NCBI RefSeq assembly: GCF_000203815.1
Contig: NW_004457711.1
Location: forward strand, 484,610-548,609
From: Cavenderia fasciculata
Lineage: Eukaryota; Evosea; Eumycetozoa; Acytosteliales; Cavenderiaceae
Direction: 5' to 3'
DNA: 64,000 nt
In this document: one piece after another, positions 52,747 through 64,000 of the stretch
Position numbering within the stretch: the first letter of the stretch is position 1
How the letters are laid out: the number at the start of each line of letters is the position of its first letter
Position numbers and translations under genes: made by a program
Notes under the pieces: model-generated
Database searches by the model: none
The model's input: the letters and a program-made list of their open reading frames with translations, nothing else
Told to the model about the DNA's origin: nothing

Positions 52747-54083
52747 TTAAATAAACCCATTTTTGATTATTTGTTGTAGAACTCTTGTAAAAGGTTCCAA
52801 TAAATTGAAAGTTGCTTTGATGTGAAATAAATAATGCCAGTGATGAATGTACGATTTGAAGGTGATCTTTTCGACATTGTCATAAGGCAAATAAAATTGA
52901 AGGTCGAAATTGTGTTGATTGTTGGATATCAACACCAATTCATTCACTTGTGGATTGTTTTTGCTGATTTTGGCAATACCATGATCGATGAATGATAGTT
53001 TGGTAATGCCAGATGGAAGAATAAACAATTGAAGTTGCTGTTGGTCTGCCAATCCCTGATTCTCGATAATGATTCTAAGATGTCTGAGTTTTGGTAATCT
53101 ATCCAATATTGGAATGACATCAAATGAGATGATTGATACTGCTTCCAATGATTGTAAGAGTGGCCAACTATTTGGATCATCATTATCACCATCTTGTTGT
53201 TGTTGGAATAGAAATTGGTTGTCGTTGTAATTATAGTATAATTTTCTAAGTCGTATATTCTTTAATTGACTGATAGCTCCACCACTCTCCGTATCTAGTT
53301 TTGTTTGTGATATATCCAATACAGTAAGAGATTTCAAACGAGAAATCAATGGAAATAGTTTGTCACCACCAGGCAAATAAGTTTTGTTTGATGTGTGCTC
53401 TAATTGTAAACTTTGTAATTTAGAATAGTTATTAGACAATATTGATTTTCAAATTGTCGATGTTTAAATGGTAAATATTCTTCTGAAGTGAATACCATTT
53501 GCTTGACAAGATGTTTTGAAATATATTCAAATAATCTCTTGCCTGCGATTGATAATCCATATCGAAGATGATTGATTTGTTTGGGTATAACTTCACGATA
53601 TGTATCGATATTTGGTACTCTATCCTTGTGTATTGGACACTTTGATCTGGCGACGATGAATTCTTTAGACTTCTTGATATAATCATGATAGTCTGTAGGC
53701 AAATTTTCAATTTCACAAGTACAATAATAACTGTTCCATGAGTATCTGACAATCTTCTCGATTAAATAAAATGGAAGTGTTGGGTTGTTGGTGGTCAATG
53801 CTATTATTGATACTACAAGTGGTGTTGGAGTTTTTATAATGTCTGGTGTAGTTGGTTTTGTTGATTTAATAAGACAGAATTGTCTTTTTGTTGCTTTAAA
53901 AGTAGCTCCGTGATATTCATATCCAATTCTTTTAAAATTGTTTATCATTTTGTCTGATATTTCATGAAGATAGTTTACAATGAGTTGATTGACATTTAAT
54001 GTAAGATTCTCAAATTTAGGTACCCAATCCATTGTAAATTTAGAATATGTTAGATTCAGATTGTAAATTAAAGTACAGTTCAA
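52747..54083 (-). pseudogene. Two-module family copy, 5'-truncated and frameshifted
   Basis: Two overlapping frames (54083-53400 and 53439-52747) together cover only the second module and the leucine-rich end: LPFYLIEKIVRYSWNSYYCTCEIE, KCPIHKDR, GKRLFEYISKH, NQYCL, then the frame change, then LPSGITKLSFIDHGIAKISKNNPQVNELVLIS and DNVEKITF. The same landmarks occur in the relics at 2144-3475 and 54802-56475. The change lies at 53440, just after NQYCL, and is not in a homopolymer. With no first module and a break, this is most likely a dead or partial copy, though a ribosome could still make the first 227 residues. Confidence 0.7.
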
Positions 54084-54801
54084 TGATTAGTCAATGATAT
54101 TTCATCTAATTATCAACATACTTAATCCTGGTGCCAAATATAGAAAGTATGCTGGATAAAAATACTAACGACTAAACTATTGTCGGTTAGTCGTCTCGAA
54201 CAAACTATAAAAGACCAATGGAAATCAATAAACATTAATTCATCTTTTATTACTATAATTAATAATCATTACAATCTAATCTAAAGTCATTATTACTATC
54301 TATATATTCATATATCTATATATTATTATTATTATATACCTCTCAACTAATTATATATTTACCAAGTATCTATATAGTTATTACAGAATAGCTTGGTATC
54401 GAGAGCGATTTGATATTCTTAAACAGGCATTGTAAACTCTTGACATATCTTGGAAGGATACGGATATATTGAGCGACTGAGAGTTTAGATCGATGATAAC
54501 ATCGATGTATTGTAATTGGTAAGGATATCACAATTATTATTCTTTCTTTGTTTCATTATTTGAACCAAACACACCTATTTCAACAAGCATAATAAATGAG
54601 CTTTATGCCAAGCAAAAGAATAAATTAAAGATACCAAACTTCACACAAACAAATATTAAAAATTTAATAATTATATTCTTTTTTTTTTTTTTTTTTTTCC
54701 CAACCCAACAAAAATTTATTGAAATCATTTCAATCACAACTCACATTACACCCACTTGTTATACATAATAAATTTTATTATATTATCTAGTTACAGTAGA
54801 A
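54084..54801. other. Spacer between two family relics
   Basis: AT-rich, with a T run of about 20 at 54679-54699. No gene seen. Confidence 0.6.
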
Positions 54802-56475
54802 ATGCAAAATGATGATAATGATTATAATAACAACAGGAATAATGATAGTTTAAAAGAAGATGAAAACAAACAAATAAAGTCATAATGACTTTTTAGATGG
54901 TGATATTGATTATAGTATGTATGAATGCAATCCTATTATTATCTTATCTTTTATTAACTCATTGTTTTGTTAAAGATAAAAGTAAAATATACACAGAGAA
55001 TGAATTAAAGAGTAAACTTAAAAAAGATTTACTTTTAATTTGTCAATCATTAGAGATAAGATCAATGACAAGCCAAACCAAAGATACAATCATCAATCGA
55101 ATTATAAAGACACAAAATGATCGATTCAAACCTAATCCTCTATGTGATTATAACAAAGGATCACTCGAATATTCATTACCGTGGCCAATCATCAGTAGAA
55201 TACTCGATGTACTTGTTACTATAGTCACCAAGCAGTCAACACTTTAGATTCTGGTCGCTCAATCTATCACTCATTTTTGGACAAATACAAATAATCAAGA
55301 ATGGAATGTCCGATGCACCCATATCGCTTTTTGAATGGTTTGAATTCATTAATCGACGATGAGGGTCGCTATAGGTTCGATGGAAATGGGTTTAATGATA
55401 AAAAAATGGAGATATAAACTGCTCAGCATATCAAAGCGAATCAACCAATTCATATCATCAAATTATTTTAACAAATTGTTTCAAATTGTCACTCAACCAA
55501 GACACATTGGATCATGTCAACAACCAATATTGTCTAATCAAAACACAAAGGTCATTATATTGGCAAAAGATGGATATATTAAAGACAAATATACTACTGT
55601 TTTTAATTCAGTTGAAAAGCTCCAACTCCAAACAGGCACTCTTCTACCATCCAACCACAAGATCTTTCAGAATATCAAATCAATACTCCCCTACATTCCC
55701 AAAGAATGATTTTTTGACTGTCTCAATCAACAAATCAACAACATGAATAAAAGTAAAACTATTATTTCCACTAAAGTGGCTTCAAGAATCAATTGTTCTT
55801 GACACTAGATTGGCCAGCAACATTATCAACAGCAACATTGTACCACCTCAACAAATGCCTAACCTTCAAAAACTCCATGTCAACAATGAACATAGATACA
55901 ACTTGGACGGTACAAAGCTTACCAAACTGGTCTACCAACACCGATGTAATCCATCTATCACCAACGTTCCACCAACCATCACAACACTAACACTCAAACA
56001 GTCAATCGGTATCCTCGACAAACTCGCCATTGTTGATCGCACATTTGGTGCATAGGATATCAACAAGCTAATAATTGGTGAATACCGTGAAGAAATGACC
56101 GATATTATTTTAAATAGTTTTGAGAGATCTGGATATGAATATCAAGGCACAACATTTAAAATTGGATCAAAGATCTACAACAACCCAAAACTTCCCTTTT
56201 ATTTAATTGAAAAGATAGTCAGATACTCTTGGAATAGTTATTATTGTACTTGTGAAATTGAAACTGACAAAAAACCTTTCATTTGCTATGAATTGTCAAC
56301 AACTTTCCCAAGCCAATTCAATATGTCCAATACACAAGGATCGTGATTCGCATACTGGCACATATAAAGAGCAACATCCTGTTCAAATTATCAATCTTCT
56401 CCGATTTGGATTGTCAGTCACATGCAAGAGACTGTTTGAATATGTTCAAAACATATTGTCAATTAGGAATTATTG
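54802..56475 (+). pseudogene. Two-module family relic, both modules present
   Basis: An ATG at 54802 gives an Asp/Asn-rich tip and soon stops. Further on, other frames give TENELKSKLKKDLLLICQSL, CDYNKGSLEYSLPWPIISR, NQYCL, and the second module LPFYLIEKIVRYSWNSYYCTCEIE with SICPIHKDR. The order matches the intact gene at 49606-52494, but at least six frame changes or stops intervene and the end is cut at about 56475. This copy and the one at 52747-54083 face each other head to head. Confidence 0.75.
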
Positions 56476-56617: not shown

Positions 56618-59432
56618 TCAAGCCCAATTAAATATAAGTTTTTCCATTTTAAAGTTGAATAAGCTATTTACAAATCTAGTTTTGTTTGTATCCCAATTCT
56701 CAACCCAATCCTTGTCAGTGGCAGGAGAGATTCTGAATTGACTGGTTGTGGAAACGTCAGCTGCAATAGGACGATATCCAGAATTGGTGTGTCGATAACT
56801 TTCCGAAAAGATTGTCATGGTATATGTACCAGGTCGAATAGGGGTAAGAGTGTACCTTCCTTTTGCATTAGTCGTGGCAGAGATGGTAGGGTAGCCAACA
56901 TTGACTGGGGTGAGCGTGACCTTGATATTGGGAATGGGGTTTCCATTGGTGTCGTTGATAAGGCCAGTGATACGACTCGATGAATCAAACAGTCGGACAT
57001 CATATCCTCCGACTACATTATTGGTACACTGAGATGAGGGGTTGGCGGGTGGATTAGGTCCATATTGTGTAAGAAAACTCGGTGTTGACATTGGTTCTTT
57101 GAGCCCGACAATTCCTAAAATCTCAAAGAACTCTGGTCTGCCTGTAATGTTGACATGATACTTTCCTGGTACATGGTTGATTAGTTGGTATTTTCTATCG
57201 TCCGTTCCACCGCTTGGTAGATGGCTGTATAGGTTTCCATTGCTATCTCTTGCTTCTTTACCATTACTTTCAGATATTAGAGTAAAGGTCATGTTTGTTA
57301 AAGAGTGATTGGTCAAGAGCATACTCTCTGTAGGTTGCATTATTTTATCATTGTTGTTGTCAATGAAAGCAGTGAGAACAAGTGTTTCATTGATTTGGGA
57401 TGGACATCTCAGTCCTCCATAAATTGGTTGGATTGCTCTCTTGTAACTTTTACATCCAGCGAGTTCTTGGAATGGTCCGGTTAGTTGGAAGTTTGGAGAA
57501 GTTCCATTCGCGTCTAGGATACTCTGTTGGGTGTTGACTGCTCCTTTTGGCGACCACACTAAAACTCCTGGTCGATTAGGTACTTTAACATAGTATGTAT
57601 GACCTTCAAGTAATCCAGTCCACATAATACCCCCAGTAGAGTTGGTTGTTCGAGTTTGAAGAATGGCCGTCGAGTTGGTGTCGTATAAATTGGCGACAAC
57701 ATTAGATGGTCCACCATTTGAAGAATTGTATTCTCCATTTCCATTAGGATCGTAGAATATGATAGTAGAGAGTTCGACGGTATCTGGAATTAATTGACAT
57801 TGCATTGGATACCCCTTGGTATCAACAACTCGTCCACTAATTTGATTAGTCGGGTTTTTTGGGGGATTTGTGCCAGTGGTCGACGTTGTCGTCATGGCTC
57901 CAGTCGTGGTTGTTATAGTAATACCTTTTGATGATGCAGTTCCAGTGATTCCTGTTGCTCTTCCTGTAATACCAGTTGCAATTCCAGTGATACCTGTTGC
58001 CGTTCCAGTGATCCTGTTGCGATCTGATGCTGTTAAGTGAATCTGTTGCGATGCAGTGATTCTGTCGCAATTCCAGTGATACCAGTTACCGTTCCAGTAA
58101 TACCAGTGGCTGAGGCCGTTCCAGTGACACCTGGTGTTGCGTTCAGGACCAGTTGCAACACTTGGTGAGAGGACCTGTGTAAACGTGTGTGAGAGGAAGA
58201 TTCCGATTCTAGCTTGTTGTTGCTGTGGTGGCATGAATGATAAAAACATGTTATTAGAGTTGTTGGCAGAATTGTTGGCCGAGTTGTTGGCTGAGCTGTT
58301 GTTGCTATTGTTGGACAACTCATTCAAAAGATTATTCTGCTTGTTTTGAAGTGTAGAGTTGGCACCACCAAACTGTTGTTGTTGTTGTTGTTGCTGTTGT
58401 TGCTGTTGTTGTTGCTGTTGTGGTGAAGCAGGTTGTTGTTGTTGTTGGTTGATGATGGTTTGACCCAAGATTGCTTTGGTCAACTTTAAGACACGATCCA
58501 ACAAGTTTTGATGCGACGATTGGAGGTTTTGGAAGGCGTATTGAAGTTGGGTGTGTGACTCTTGCAACACTTGGTTGGTCGACTTGAGGTCATTGTATTC
58601 AGTTTGTTGCTTGGAGAATTGGAATATGAGTTGTTGGACCGCATCAAACTGCTCTTGCTTGGTGTCGGGTAGTGGCGACTGCATGGGGGTGGAGCCAGTG
58701 CTATTGGGGTCGACGTAGGGTGGAGTTGGCTTGCTGCTGCTGGGTTGGCCGCTACTCGACACGGTCGATGGTGTCTGTGGTGTGGAGGAAGAGGTGGGGA
58801 TGTTGACGACGGGGTAGTATGGGGCCGAGTGCTCGTCGTCCTCATCCTCTGCATAGTAGTTGGGTTGGCCAGAGCCTGGTGCAGGCGCACCGACAGTTCT
58901 GTATTGGTTTGGGTTGTTGTTGTTGACCGTGATGGAACGACGCACGCTCTTACGACGCTTGATATTAATCATAATCTCGGGGTTATGCTTTTTAAAGTAT
59001 TCATTGGCAAACTCAAACAATCTAGCTTGTGGCTCAGAATCGCTATTAATCTCTTCAGACTGTGCCGATTTTTCATCATCCACCTTGTGGAATCCATAAA
59101 TATTTAATTGTCTAAGGATAGGAAAAAAAATAATTAAACGTATTAGCCAATGGTATCTAAAAGAGAATCTCTAATAAAAAAAAAAAAAAAGAAAAAAAAA
59201 AGATATAGAGAGAACACTATAGTGGACAAACATACCTAATAAAACTACAAAACTTTCCAGTCTTGAAATACTTTGGTAGGAGCTTTGTTTCAAATTCAGC
59301 ACAGTTGGTAATGACAATACTCTCACCTAGACGACCCCATCTAATCAAATGGTTGTTTTCAGGGGTGTCGAGCATAGTTATTAAACTCTTGATAAATGGA
59401 GCTACTCCATCTCTAGTCATCAGATTTGTCAT
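56618..59432 (-). CDS. HSF DNA-binding domain joined to a secreted-type beta-sandwich protein
   Basis: Exons 59432-59236 and 59111-56618 splice to 896 residues in one frame. Residues 1-110 are a heat-shock-factor DNA-binding domain (LIRWGRLGESIVI, LPKYFKTGKFCSFIRQLNIYGFHKV). A basic patch (KRRKSVRR), a Ser/Pro-rich stretch, a coiled coil (about 230-290) and a Gln run follow. After about residue 370 the protein changes character: a Trp/His/Thr stretch with TGITG repeats, then several CarboxypepD_reg or SdrD-B-like beta domains (ISGRVVDTKGYPMQC; ITGLINDTNGNPIPNIKVTLTP) with many N-glycosylation sequons, as in colossin-like cell-surface proteins. A nuclear factor fused to an extracellular protein is not expected. 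Either two genes were fused here or the join is an assembly fault. Confidence 0.8.
57940..58130 (-). repeat. Imperfect tandem repeat at the chimera junction
   Basis: Units of about 18-21 bases, rich in CCAGTGATACCTGTTGC-like sequence, encode GITGTAT-type repeats. The pattern is readable in two different frames on either side of about 58040, which suggests a frame change inside the array. Confidence 0.7.
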
Positions 59433-60809
59433 TTTTCTATAGTTCTGTTATGTTTGTCTGTCTACAATTGTAAAGAAGAACTATATATCTTTATGTATGT
59501 ATATTTATATATATGTATCTCTGTAAACTCTTCTTTGTTGTTGTTATTGTTGTTGCTTAATAATAAAAAAAGGTGAGCTTTTAACGTTCTTCTTGCGTAA
59601 TGATAAAAAAAAAAATATTTAAAAATTGAAAAAAGATTTTTTAATTTAGAGTGCTGGTTTTTGAGAAGAAGAGGGAGGCTACACCTTTTGAGAGGAGGAT
59701 ATGTGAAGTAATGTTGTGCTGTATTTATATTTAAAATAAATAAATTGTGTAATATAAATAAAGTATTATTGTTATCTCTATGTACAAAGCTTGGTTTGGT
59801 TGGATGAAGGAGAACAAACACACAATTGCAATTAATTTGATTTAAATAATAAGGTGTGAGGAGGACAAAGCAGGCGGGGGTTATATAAATTAAAAAAAAA
59901 AAACAAAAGTGAGACCAACGTATATTATCTCAACGTTGAACAAACTACTATAATAATAATAATAATAATAATATTGTGATAAACAACAAATAAAAAGTAA
60001 TTATAATTATTGCTATTGCTTTTGCTATGAATGATGGATGGATGGATGGTCCTGCCTGCTAAACTCGTTTTATATTTGAGAAGTACACGAGAAAAAGTAA
60101 GTTCTATCCGACTGGTGAGTCGAGTCGATTTGGATTATATAAATTTAAAGTTTAATAATAAATATAATATAATCGATGACTATCTTTATCTTGGTGATGA
60201 TGAAATTTGTTTAATGAACTTTCAGTGATATCACTTTTCTTCTTTGTTCGAATACTCCTTCTTCTTTTTTTTTTTTTAATAATAAATATTTTTATTTTTC
60301 CAACCAAAAGCTTCTCGAACACTCAATACCCCTTCAATGGAAATACCAATAATGGGTGATGATATTCTTTGCTCATAAGCAGTCGGTGGCTTGTTCCACA
60401 CCTCATCATCTTTGTGGGGTGGGCTATCATCACTCTAGAGAGATATTTATGAACAATTTTCTTTATTCGTTCGTATACATGATCATCGTTGAACGTCAAT
60501 ATATAACTATACCGACATTGGTATGGTATGCAGGACTACGACAGACCGACCGTTATGCCAGTTTTATGAGGAAAACGAACGTGGGGGGTCGGAAGTTGAA
60601 AATCTCACTTCATCTCTGAGCTGAACAAAGTAATTATTACGCGACTTTCAAGAAAGACAAGTTAGTTAAGGTAATTTATACAATCTCTGAGTCTTTCGTC
60701 TCTCCTCTCCTCTTCAGTCATTTGTAGACCCGATTATACTATACATATATTCATAGTAATAACATTAATTATTAGTAGTACAAATAACAATAACAATAAC
60801 AATTAAATA
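59433..60809. other. Divergent intergenic region, 1.4 kb
   Basis: Promoter DNA for the HSF-type gene (minus) and the Deg protease (plus). It includes AAT and GATG runs and an A run. Frames at 60031 and 60356 look random. No gene was supported. Confidence 0.6.
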
Positions 60810-62935
60810 ATGTTTAGAAATGTATCAAAGTGTCTAAAGAACAATACAACGATCTTATTGAATTGTCAGAAACATAGAAATGGAGGTGTCATTGTGAACA
60901 GCTATAACAGTAACAGCAGTAATAGTAGTAGTAGTAATCAATGGGGGTTTGGATACTCTTCTACACAAAGTCAGAGATACTTTGCATCGAGTAATACTAC
61001 TCCATCCCCATCTTCATCTTCTTCATCCTCTTCTTCTTCTTCTTCTTCTTCAGATAAACAAAAGAAATTAAAGAAAGTAACAGTCATCGATGATAAACTA
61101 AGAAATACAACGTCGACCAAGGAATTGGTTATCAGCGACTTGGAACACAAAGAAGAATTGACACCTCTATCGGTACCAGTCGAATCGTTTATTAAACCAC
61201 AACCACTAGCACAACAACCAATACAACCAATACAACCATTTCCACCAGCACCACCCGTATCTGAACAACCTGCAGGAGGTGCTAGTTCAACTCCAGGTTA
61301 TATGGTATCACCAAATGAATCTGGTATTGTATCAAACATATAATATATATCATATATTATCTATCATGAAAAAACACTAACATTCAACAAATTATGTTCT
61401 CCCCACTCATTTAATCTAGACCCATTATTGGATCCTATTATTAAAGTATTTTCTGTATTGGCATCACCTAACCATTTTACACCTGTATGTTCTATTATTT
61501 ATACATTAATGAATGAATATTAATTCAAATCTTTATGTTTGGTTTCTATTTTAGTGGCAAATGAGAACACAAAAAGAAGTAACTGGAAGTGGATTTGTAA
61601 TCAAGGGTAAGAGAATTTTAACCAATGCACATGTTGTAGCGGATCAAACATCGATCATGTTGACAAAGTTTGGTAATCCAAACAAGTTTAATGCGAGATT
61701 GTTGGCAATTGCACACGAGTATGATTTGGCCATGTTGACAGTAGACGACGATGCATTTTGGGAGGGTATTGTACCACTCGAGTTGGGTGATATTCCAGAG
61801 TTGCAAGACACGATTACAGTGGTTGGATTTCCGACGGGAGGTTCAAACATTTGCGTCACTCAAGGTGTAGTGTCGCGTATCGATCTACAACAATACGCAC
61901 ATAGCGAGAGTCGTCTGTTGTCGATTCAAATCGATGCAGCCATCAATCCGGGTAATTCGGGTGGTCCCGCACTCATGAATGGCAAGGTGATTGGTATTGC
62001 TTTCCAAAATCTGGCTGGCGCCTCTTCCATTGGATTTATCATTCCTACACCGGTAGTCAACCGTTTCCTACAAGACATTGAGAAGAATGGAAAGTTTACG
62101 GGTGAACCAATGATGGGTATCATGACACAATCACTTGATTCGGTGCCCAAGAAATACTATAAAATTCCAGATGGTATGACGGGTATTCTCGTAAATGAAA
62201 TACATCCATTGTCACGTGCACGTAATGTATTGGCGCTGCAAGATGTGATTACGCATATTCGCGGTGTGCCAATTGCCAACGATGGCTCGATAGCATTCCG
62301 TCGTCGTGAGAGAATCTCTTACGAATACCTCCTCTCCTCACGATTCATTGGTGACACGATCGACGTCACGGTCTTTAGAAAAGGAGAGTCGCTTCAACTG
62401 ACCATCCCACTGGTTCCCCAGATTCGTGTCGTTCCCTACCAACTATACGATCGTCGTCCCAGCTACTTTTTCCACGCAGGCTTTGTTTTTCTCCCCGTTA
62501 CCTATCCGCTCCTCACCGAAATCTCAGAGGATCTCGCACCCACCTATCGTCGCGTCTATGAAAAGGTGGACAATATCACTTCACCAGACTATCAAATAGT
62601 CGTCATTGCACAGGTTCTCATCGACAAGATCAATTACGGCTACTCTTCATTTGGTCTTTGCGAAGTCAAAAAGGTCAACAATATCCCAATCAAAAATCTT
62701 AAACATCTTGTAGAATTAATTGAATCAAATACAAATCAATATCTTGTAATAACTTTAGAACATGGTAAGTAAAATATACGTATATGGATCGTAATAGATT
62801 ATGTATAACTAACAAATATTTATTTTAGATTATTTAATCATTTTGGATAGAGATGAAGTTATGGAAGCAAATAAGAGAATTATGGCTCAACATGCCATTC
62901 CATCAGCAAAATCAGATGACCTTAAAAATATATAA
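60810..62935 (+). CDS. Deg/HtrA-type serine protease, probably mitochondrial
   Basis: Exons 60810-61323, 61420-61484, 61555-62764 and 62829-62935 splice in phase to 631 residues. A basic, Ser/Asn-rich N-terminus of about 100 residues resembles a mitochondrial targeting sequence, followed by a poly-Ser and Pro-rich spacer. The trypsin-like triad is in LTNAHVVA (H219), HEYDLAML (D250) and NPGNSGGPA (S328). One PDZ-like region (MTGILVNEIHPLSRA) and a C-terminal module (VVIAQVLIDKINYGY) match the plant DEG9/DEG10 type rather than bacterial DegP. The first donor is GTATTG. Such proteases remove damaged or specific regulatory proteins in organelles. Confidence 0.9.
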
Positions 62936-63403: not shown

Positions 63404-64000
63404 TCAACTTCACACTTTTATATTCATTGGTACCTCGTCTAATCACTCATTTTTATTGTTTAGGTCGGAAAAAGAAAGAAACCAAACGACAAAACGCCGA
63501 AAACTTCGTAGGTCCCACGAAAATACCTTGGGACCAAAGAAATATCACAATAATTTTTGGTGAGACAAAGAATCAATAGAAATTTACTTTATTCCTTTCC
63601 AATTTCAATTTCAAAACCCGACCATCCTCGGGAAGGTAAGGCTGGTTCCAAAGATCAAAGATAGGTCAAAGTTAAAGAATAAAAAGAATCACCAAACTAA
63701 AAATTGATTAAAAAATATAAAATAACATCGCATTGGTCACTATTGCAATTTCTAACCATTTGAACTTTTATTTTGAATTGAGGAAAGAAAAAAAAACAGA
63801 CAAAGTAAAAAAAAAGACAAAGTACAGAAAAAAAGGGGAAAATCAGTAAATTGAGATCAACATTATATTTTCTATCTAATAACTTACAGCTGGGGGGGGA
63901 CTTTCATATTTATGCAGGAAGGCCCTGTTAAGGTTAACTAGGTCGTGTCTACCCTCCCAATATGCACGATATCGGCAGGTAAAGGACAATAAATCCATGG
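63404..64000. other. Unassigned end of window
   Basis: Upstream region of the small gene. It has a hairpin-forming segment at 63619-63634 (CCCGA...TCGGG), A-rich tracts, a G9 run near 63890 and a G+C-richer last 110 bases. No gene is supported. Confidence 0.5.

Follow-up and report, generated by a model that had tools for sequence, protein, structure and literature searches.

A single open frame on the minus strand of contig C11 leads from a heat shock factor (HSF) into a colossin-like protein, which raises the question of whether it represents a chimeric gene or a product of the assembly. The window analyzed is the last 64 kb of C11 (548,609 bases), in a 31.0-Mb genome of 21 contigs, and positions given without a contig name are window positions. 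The list of open reading frames and their translations gave 850 codons without a stop at 56618-59170 (-), so the one uninterrupted frame that the initial annotation described for the HSF and an extracellular part is indeed present. Read from an ATG at 59432 and with a 124-nt GT..AG intron removed, the spliced HSF/SdrD_B frame comprises 896 residues. We consider it about 80% probable that this frame is an assembly join and not a gene, with the end of C11 misattached and the gene that runs off contig C7 as the likely 5' half of the colossin-like gene.

The first exon of the HSF (59236..59432, -), delimited by the ATG, the open frame, the splice signals GTATGT/TTAG and the Pfam match of the spliced protein to PF00447, encodes the first portion of the DNA-binding domain, and is followed by the intron (59112..59235, -). 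The HSF-derived extent of exon 2 (58200..59111, -), defined by the frame, by Pfam and by a break at ~58199 in an array alignment, contains the remainder of this domain (to ~58952), then a heptad-like stretch and a Gln/Asn-rich part. As had been claimed, the HSF DNA-binding domain is complete within the first 365 residues (PF00447, residues 13-119, E 5.8e-29, 101 bits with a cut-off of 22), and 17 of the 18 PDB sequences that this part matched at E <= 1e-3 are named heat shock factors (best chains E 2e-18). The heptad-like stretch behind the domain was recognized by eye, with a weak, sub-cut-off match to the coiled-coil-type ZapB (19 bits), and the glutamine run reported earlier is likewise visible by eye in the HSF part. 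In its DNA-binding domain, and as far as can be judged by eye in the stretches behind it, the protein resembles the HSF family; unlike its members, it lacks a visible usual C-terminus, and the sequence enters a strip of repeats at ~58199. No continuation of the HSF was found by eye in those contig ends that were inspected. This is the sole HSF detected in the genome, a count that is a lower bound.

The colossin-like part (56618..57895, -) runs to the stop at 56618. Beta-sandwich domains had been attributed to it, and the last 425 residues of the frame matched SdrD_B (~57766-57509, E 5.7e-16, 59.1 bits) and CarboxypepD_reg (~56971-56750, E 6.8e-14, 52.4 bits) in Pfam, both above the cut-off. 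Its likeness to colossins, the surface proteins of dictyostelids with Cna_B/SdrD_B repeats, lies in these two domains and in a relative at C8:642910-648468, a multi-unit gene with pieces of which it shares 52-60% identity; colossin A is described in a passage of the literature as a slug structural protein made of Cna_B repeats (PMC3188802). In contrast to colossins, it consists of a single unit and is leaderless in this frame, where a hydrophobic leader is absent beyond residue 300 (mean hydropathy over 15 residues 1.1 at best), and it differs from its C8 relative in its upstream array, which it has in common with C7 and not with the C8 gene. The abundance of N-glycosylation sequons noted in the initial annotation does not exceed composition: 10 sequons in the 438 residues of the colossin-like part compare with a shuffle mean of 8.3 (297/1000 shuffles reach 10), and 8 in the 365 residues of the HSF part with a mean of 6.2 (261/1000 reach 8). 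Sequons were consequently dropped as a marker of an extracellular part. On C8, the SdrD_B part has its closest relative from ~1917 onwards in locus L031 (C8:641000-650500), a multi-unit colossin-like gene spread over several frames, where the similarity starts mid-domain after unrelated sequence, as would be produced by a truncated start, an intron or a wrong join. The same contig also holds a single open frame of 8080 codons that is dense in SdrD_B matches (C8:586082-609196), a colossin-A-like giant gene.

The two parts are linked by a strip of TGITG/ATGITG repeats (57904..58199, -), identified by repeat matches, motif phase and alignment to an array at the end of C7. At the DNA level the strip matched itself and 18 other places, all of them in C7:1905314-1908399 at 67-75% identity, on a contig of 1,908,399 bases. 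A search with the unit pattern at up to two mismatches returned 116 matches, versus 4 for the pattern read backwards. Among the matches listed, units with 0-1 mismatch occurred only at C7:1904644-1908383, the last ~4 kb of that contig, or at C11:542548-542719, and the five matches outside C7 and C11 all had 2 mismatches. The frame of the C7 gene, 1709 codons long, is still open where it leaves the contig inside the array, and the last ~25 bases of C7 also depart from the repeat unit, as judged by eye. The locus (L032, C7:1902500-1908399) comprises a leader (by eye), Dicty_spore_N, Thr/Ser/Ala-rich tracts and a ~3 kb ATGVTG/TGITG array. Two words of the array were found at no other contig end in a scan of the starts of C1-C20 (6 kb each) and C21 (300 bases) and of the final 300 bases of 18 contigs (C1-C6, C8-C10, C12-C20); N-masking took up 6000, 673 and 1701 of the 6000 bases scanned at the starts of C4, C5 and C6, and C21's end or the masked starts could conceal another partner. 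Separately, runs of TTAGGG were observed at the end of contigs C2 and C18 and at the start of C8; according to a passage of PMC6759168, D. fasciculatum has TTAGGG and P. pallidum has TAAGGG.

The C7 gene and the SdrD_B part on C11 read in matching directions. Since C7 has a 5' part and an array but no 3' end, and C11 an array and a 3' end but no 5' part, the two can be paired as halves, with the SdrD_B part most likely forming the end of the C7 gene. The N-terminus of that gene carries the domain of dictyostelid spore-coat-type proteins (Dicty_spore_N, PF04562, E 4.9e-16), and it would be unusual for a spore-coat N-terminus to be combined with a colossin-like C-terminus. Two observations speak against the pairing. 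The identity of the C11 repeat units to the C7 array is no higher than 67-75%, and the frames of L036-L041, six loci paralogous to the N-terminus of the C7 gene, showed no SdrD_B domains when read by eye within flanks of ~1.5 kb, so the C7 gene need not end in them. Both would also suit the main alternative, in which the HSF and the SdrD_B gene are true neighbors and the closing of a gap through the repeat removed the end of the HSF, a spacer and, from the second gene, its leader and most of its array, the C7 gene being a separate gene with a related, paralogous array. This too is an assembly error; it can draw on the fact that the HSF and the SdrD_B gene already lie on one strand in the required order, and on the damage in the strip described below. 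It demands a further, unseen partner for the open end of C7, while no other array at 0-1 mismatch appeared among the matches listed, and we regard it as unlikely.

An uninterrupted frame through such an array comes cheaply, because the array is free of stops in all three forward frames: this held for 276 of 277 windows of 300 bases in the C7 array, whereas among 798 windows taken at the starts of seven contigs none had more than one open frame. In the damaged strip on C11 both of the remaining frames contain stops, at 58145 and 58035. We estimate that a link from HSF to SdrD_B through an array of this kind would be in frame about one time in three. The base composition gave no sign of a gene boundary. 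The G+C content is 38-61% over ~56700-59000, against 19-32% in noncoding sequence around 54-55 kb and 59.4-60.3 kb; its profile reveals no AT-rich spacer between the HSF and SdrD_B parts, and the HSF sequence directly abuts array-like sequence. The possibility that a correct assembly contains two ordinary neighboring genes, merged by nothing except read-through of the frame, is in keeping with the match of the two parts to different known families. This explanation was rejected as scarcely conceivable, since neither a stop nor an AT-rich spacer nor a hydrophobic leader lies between the parts, and array-like sequence adjoins the HSF.

The strip itself is damaged. At the end of C7, all 220 AC[TA]GG motifs stand in one phase, whereas in the strip and its immediate surroundings the phase of the 16 motifs shifts three times (0 at 57904-58009, 1 at 58017-58125, 0 at 58153 and 2 at 58178), in accordance with the earlier remark that the short repeats read in two frames. 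The region from 58230 to 57891 was compared with the C7 array in 15 overlapping alignment windows of 60 bases. The outermost, which is partly HSF (58230-58171), had 8 mismatches besides 9 gaps and 4 extra bases. The next (58210-58151) aligned 46 bases with 43 matches and 3 mismatches, and had 13 gaps amounting to 15 missing bases and no extra base. Gaps then numbered 12 at 58190-58131, 7 at 58170-58111, 5 at 58150-58091, 2 at both 58130-58071 and 58110-58051, and 4 at 58090-58031, so that all seven windows from 58210 to 58031 showed losses without gains. Further inwards we counted 7 gaps and 4 extra bases (58070-58011), 5 gaps and 1 extra base (58050-57991), 1 gap (58030-57971), 1 gap and 1 extra base (58010-57951), 2 gaps and 9 extra bases (57990-57931), no gaps (57970-57911), and no gaps with 3 extra bases (57950-57891). 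Extra bases thus occurred in 6 of the 15 overlapping windows. As a control, 49 windows of the C7 array aligned to the rest of that array produced 5 gaps in total, one of them not a multiple of 3. The losses are densest adjoining the HSF (58210-58111), with a second patch at 58090-57991. Their unevenness counts against a misjoin, as there are just 2 gaps at 58130-58071, and a single gradient of base loss climbing towards the HSF was rejected on account of this cleaner stretch.

How array-like the bases nearest the HSF look depends on the scoring. With losses made cheap and gains dear, a scoring picked after the pattern had been seen, the alignment of 58150-58200 beat all 1000 shuffles, all 1000 GC-matched genome stretches and all 418 stretches from its own open reading frame. 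With these costs swapped it was ordinary, being reached by 260/1000 genome controls, 187/1000 shuffles and 158/418 own stretches. Under ordinary gap costs, 6 of 300 controls and none of 300 shuffles reached the score of 58150-58200; for the outermost 38 bases (58162-58200) the figures were 27/300 and 4/300, which is not convincing, and clear array-likeness of these bases was obtained only with losses cheap and gains dear. The losses look like bases dropped in poor reads and would not readily be explained by evolutionary decay, as they occur without gains beside intact units, and decay should also have added substitutions and insertions.

These observations bear on the proposal that the join is real, namely that an array-mediated rearrangement placed the HSF upstream of the array and that one transcript yields an HSF, the only one detected, bearing a colossin-type beta-sandwich tail of the surface-protein kind. 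The single stop-free frame, the absence of N runs at the HSF/array join and the intactness of both parts by Pfam would all be in its favor. A genuine fusion would, however, be expected to retain the repeat's own phase through the linking strip, and the strip, with its three shifts, does not keep to the frame of its own repeat; the losses beside the HSF are unaccompanied by gains, and the open frame is, as shown above, cheap. It would also require that the genome's sole HSF found, again as a lower bound, is chimeric. Dictyostelid transcription factors are described, in a passage of PMC6873476, as mostly simple in architecture. A literature search for a fusion of an HSF and an extracellular protein in Dictyostelium found nothing, and the colossin literature, in its titles and some passages, does not have HSF fusions among its subjects. 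We judge a real chimera to be very improbable.

Between the chimeric gene and the misassembly that the initial annotation had put forward, it is the misassembly that is favored, because among the matches listed the repeat at the join recurs at 0-1 mismatch only at the open end of C7, and because the base losses in the strip are densest next to the HSF; its headline of a fused protein is unsupported. The locus resembles assembly chimeras at repeats in that the join falls within a repeat, another contig (C7) has its open end in the same repeat, and the stop-free array preserves the frame. Passages of PMC5282741 state that the genomes of P. pallidum, D. lacteum and D. fasciculatum were obtained by dideoxy and Roche 454 sequencing together with primer walking and a fosmid map, that 33 to 54 gaps remained in each, with D. 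fasciculatum in 25 supercontigs, and that inappropriately fused or split gene models exist in these genomes. In contrast to such wrongly fused models in dictyostelid annotation, here the assembly itself, besides the gene model, appears to be wrong.

Under a misjoin, the contact at ~58199 would have arisen in a poorly read stretch of the Thr/Gly array of an unrelated gene for a secreted protein, to whose 3' end the terminal 5.8 kb of C11 became attached. Most likely, the open end of C7 would supply the 5' part of that gene, with its leader, Dicty_spore_N and some 3 kb of array. The HSF would then be a nuclear heat-shock regulator of the ordinary kind, and its true C-terminus would probably lie outside the C11 sequence in the window. 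This terminal segment holds the HSF, an HtrA-like protease gene, a small open reading frame and a dispersed repeat (63757..64000) in which C11 ends, 5.8 kb past the join, and which is present in at least 14 other genomic places, mostly at 97-98% identity. The HtrA/DegP-like serine protease gene is at 60807-62935 (+), where the frame 61555-62769 matched Trypsin_2 (E 4.7e-24), PDZ_3 (E 2.2e-29) and PDZ_2 in Pfam and upstream and downstream exons were recognized by eye. On the other side of the join, 53400-56460 contains fragments of a repeated gene family, which lie on both strands with their frames broken, with similar 'LPFYLIEKIVRYSWNSYYCTCEIE' stretches at ~53.7 and 56.2 kb; a Pfam search with the frame 53403-54086 gave no match.

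To a specialist, this finding would be a correction and not a discovery. If it is true, the end of C7 should be joined to C11 (from ~542.6 kb downward), and the last 5.8 kb of C11 have to be placed elsewhere. More generally, arrays that are free of stops in every forward frame can disguise wrong joins as in-frame gene fusions. A gene model built on the present frame would hand the genome's sole detected HSF a false half, and would mask the 3' end of the gene for a large secreted, repeat-rich protein.
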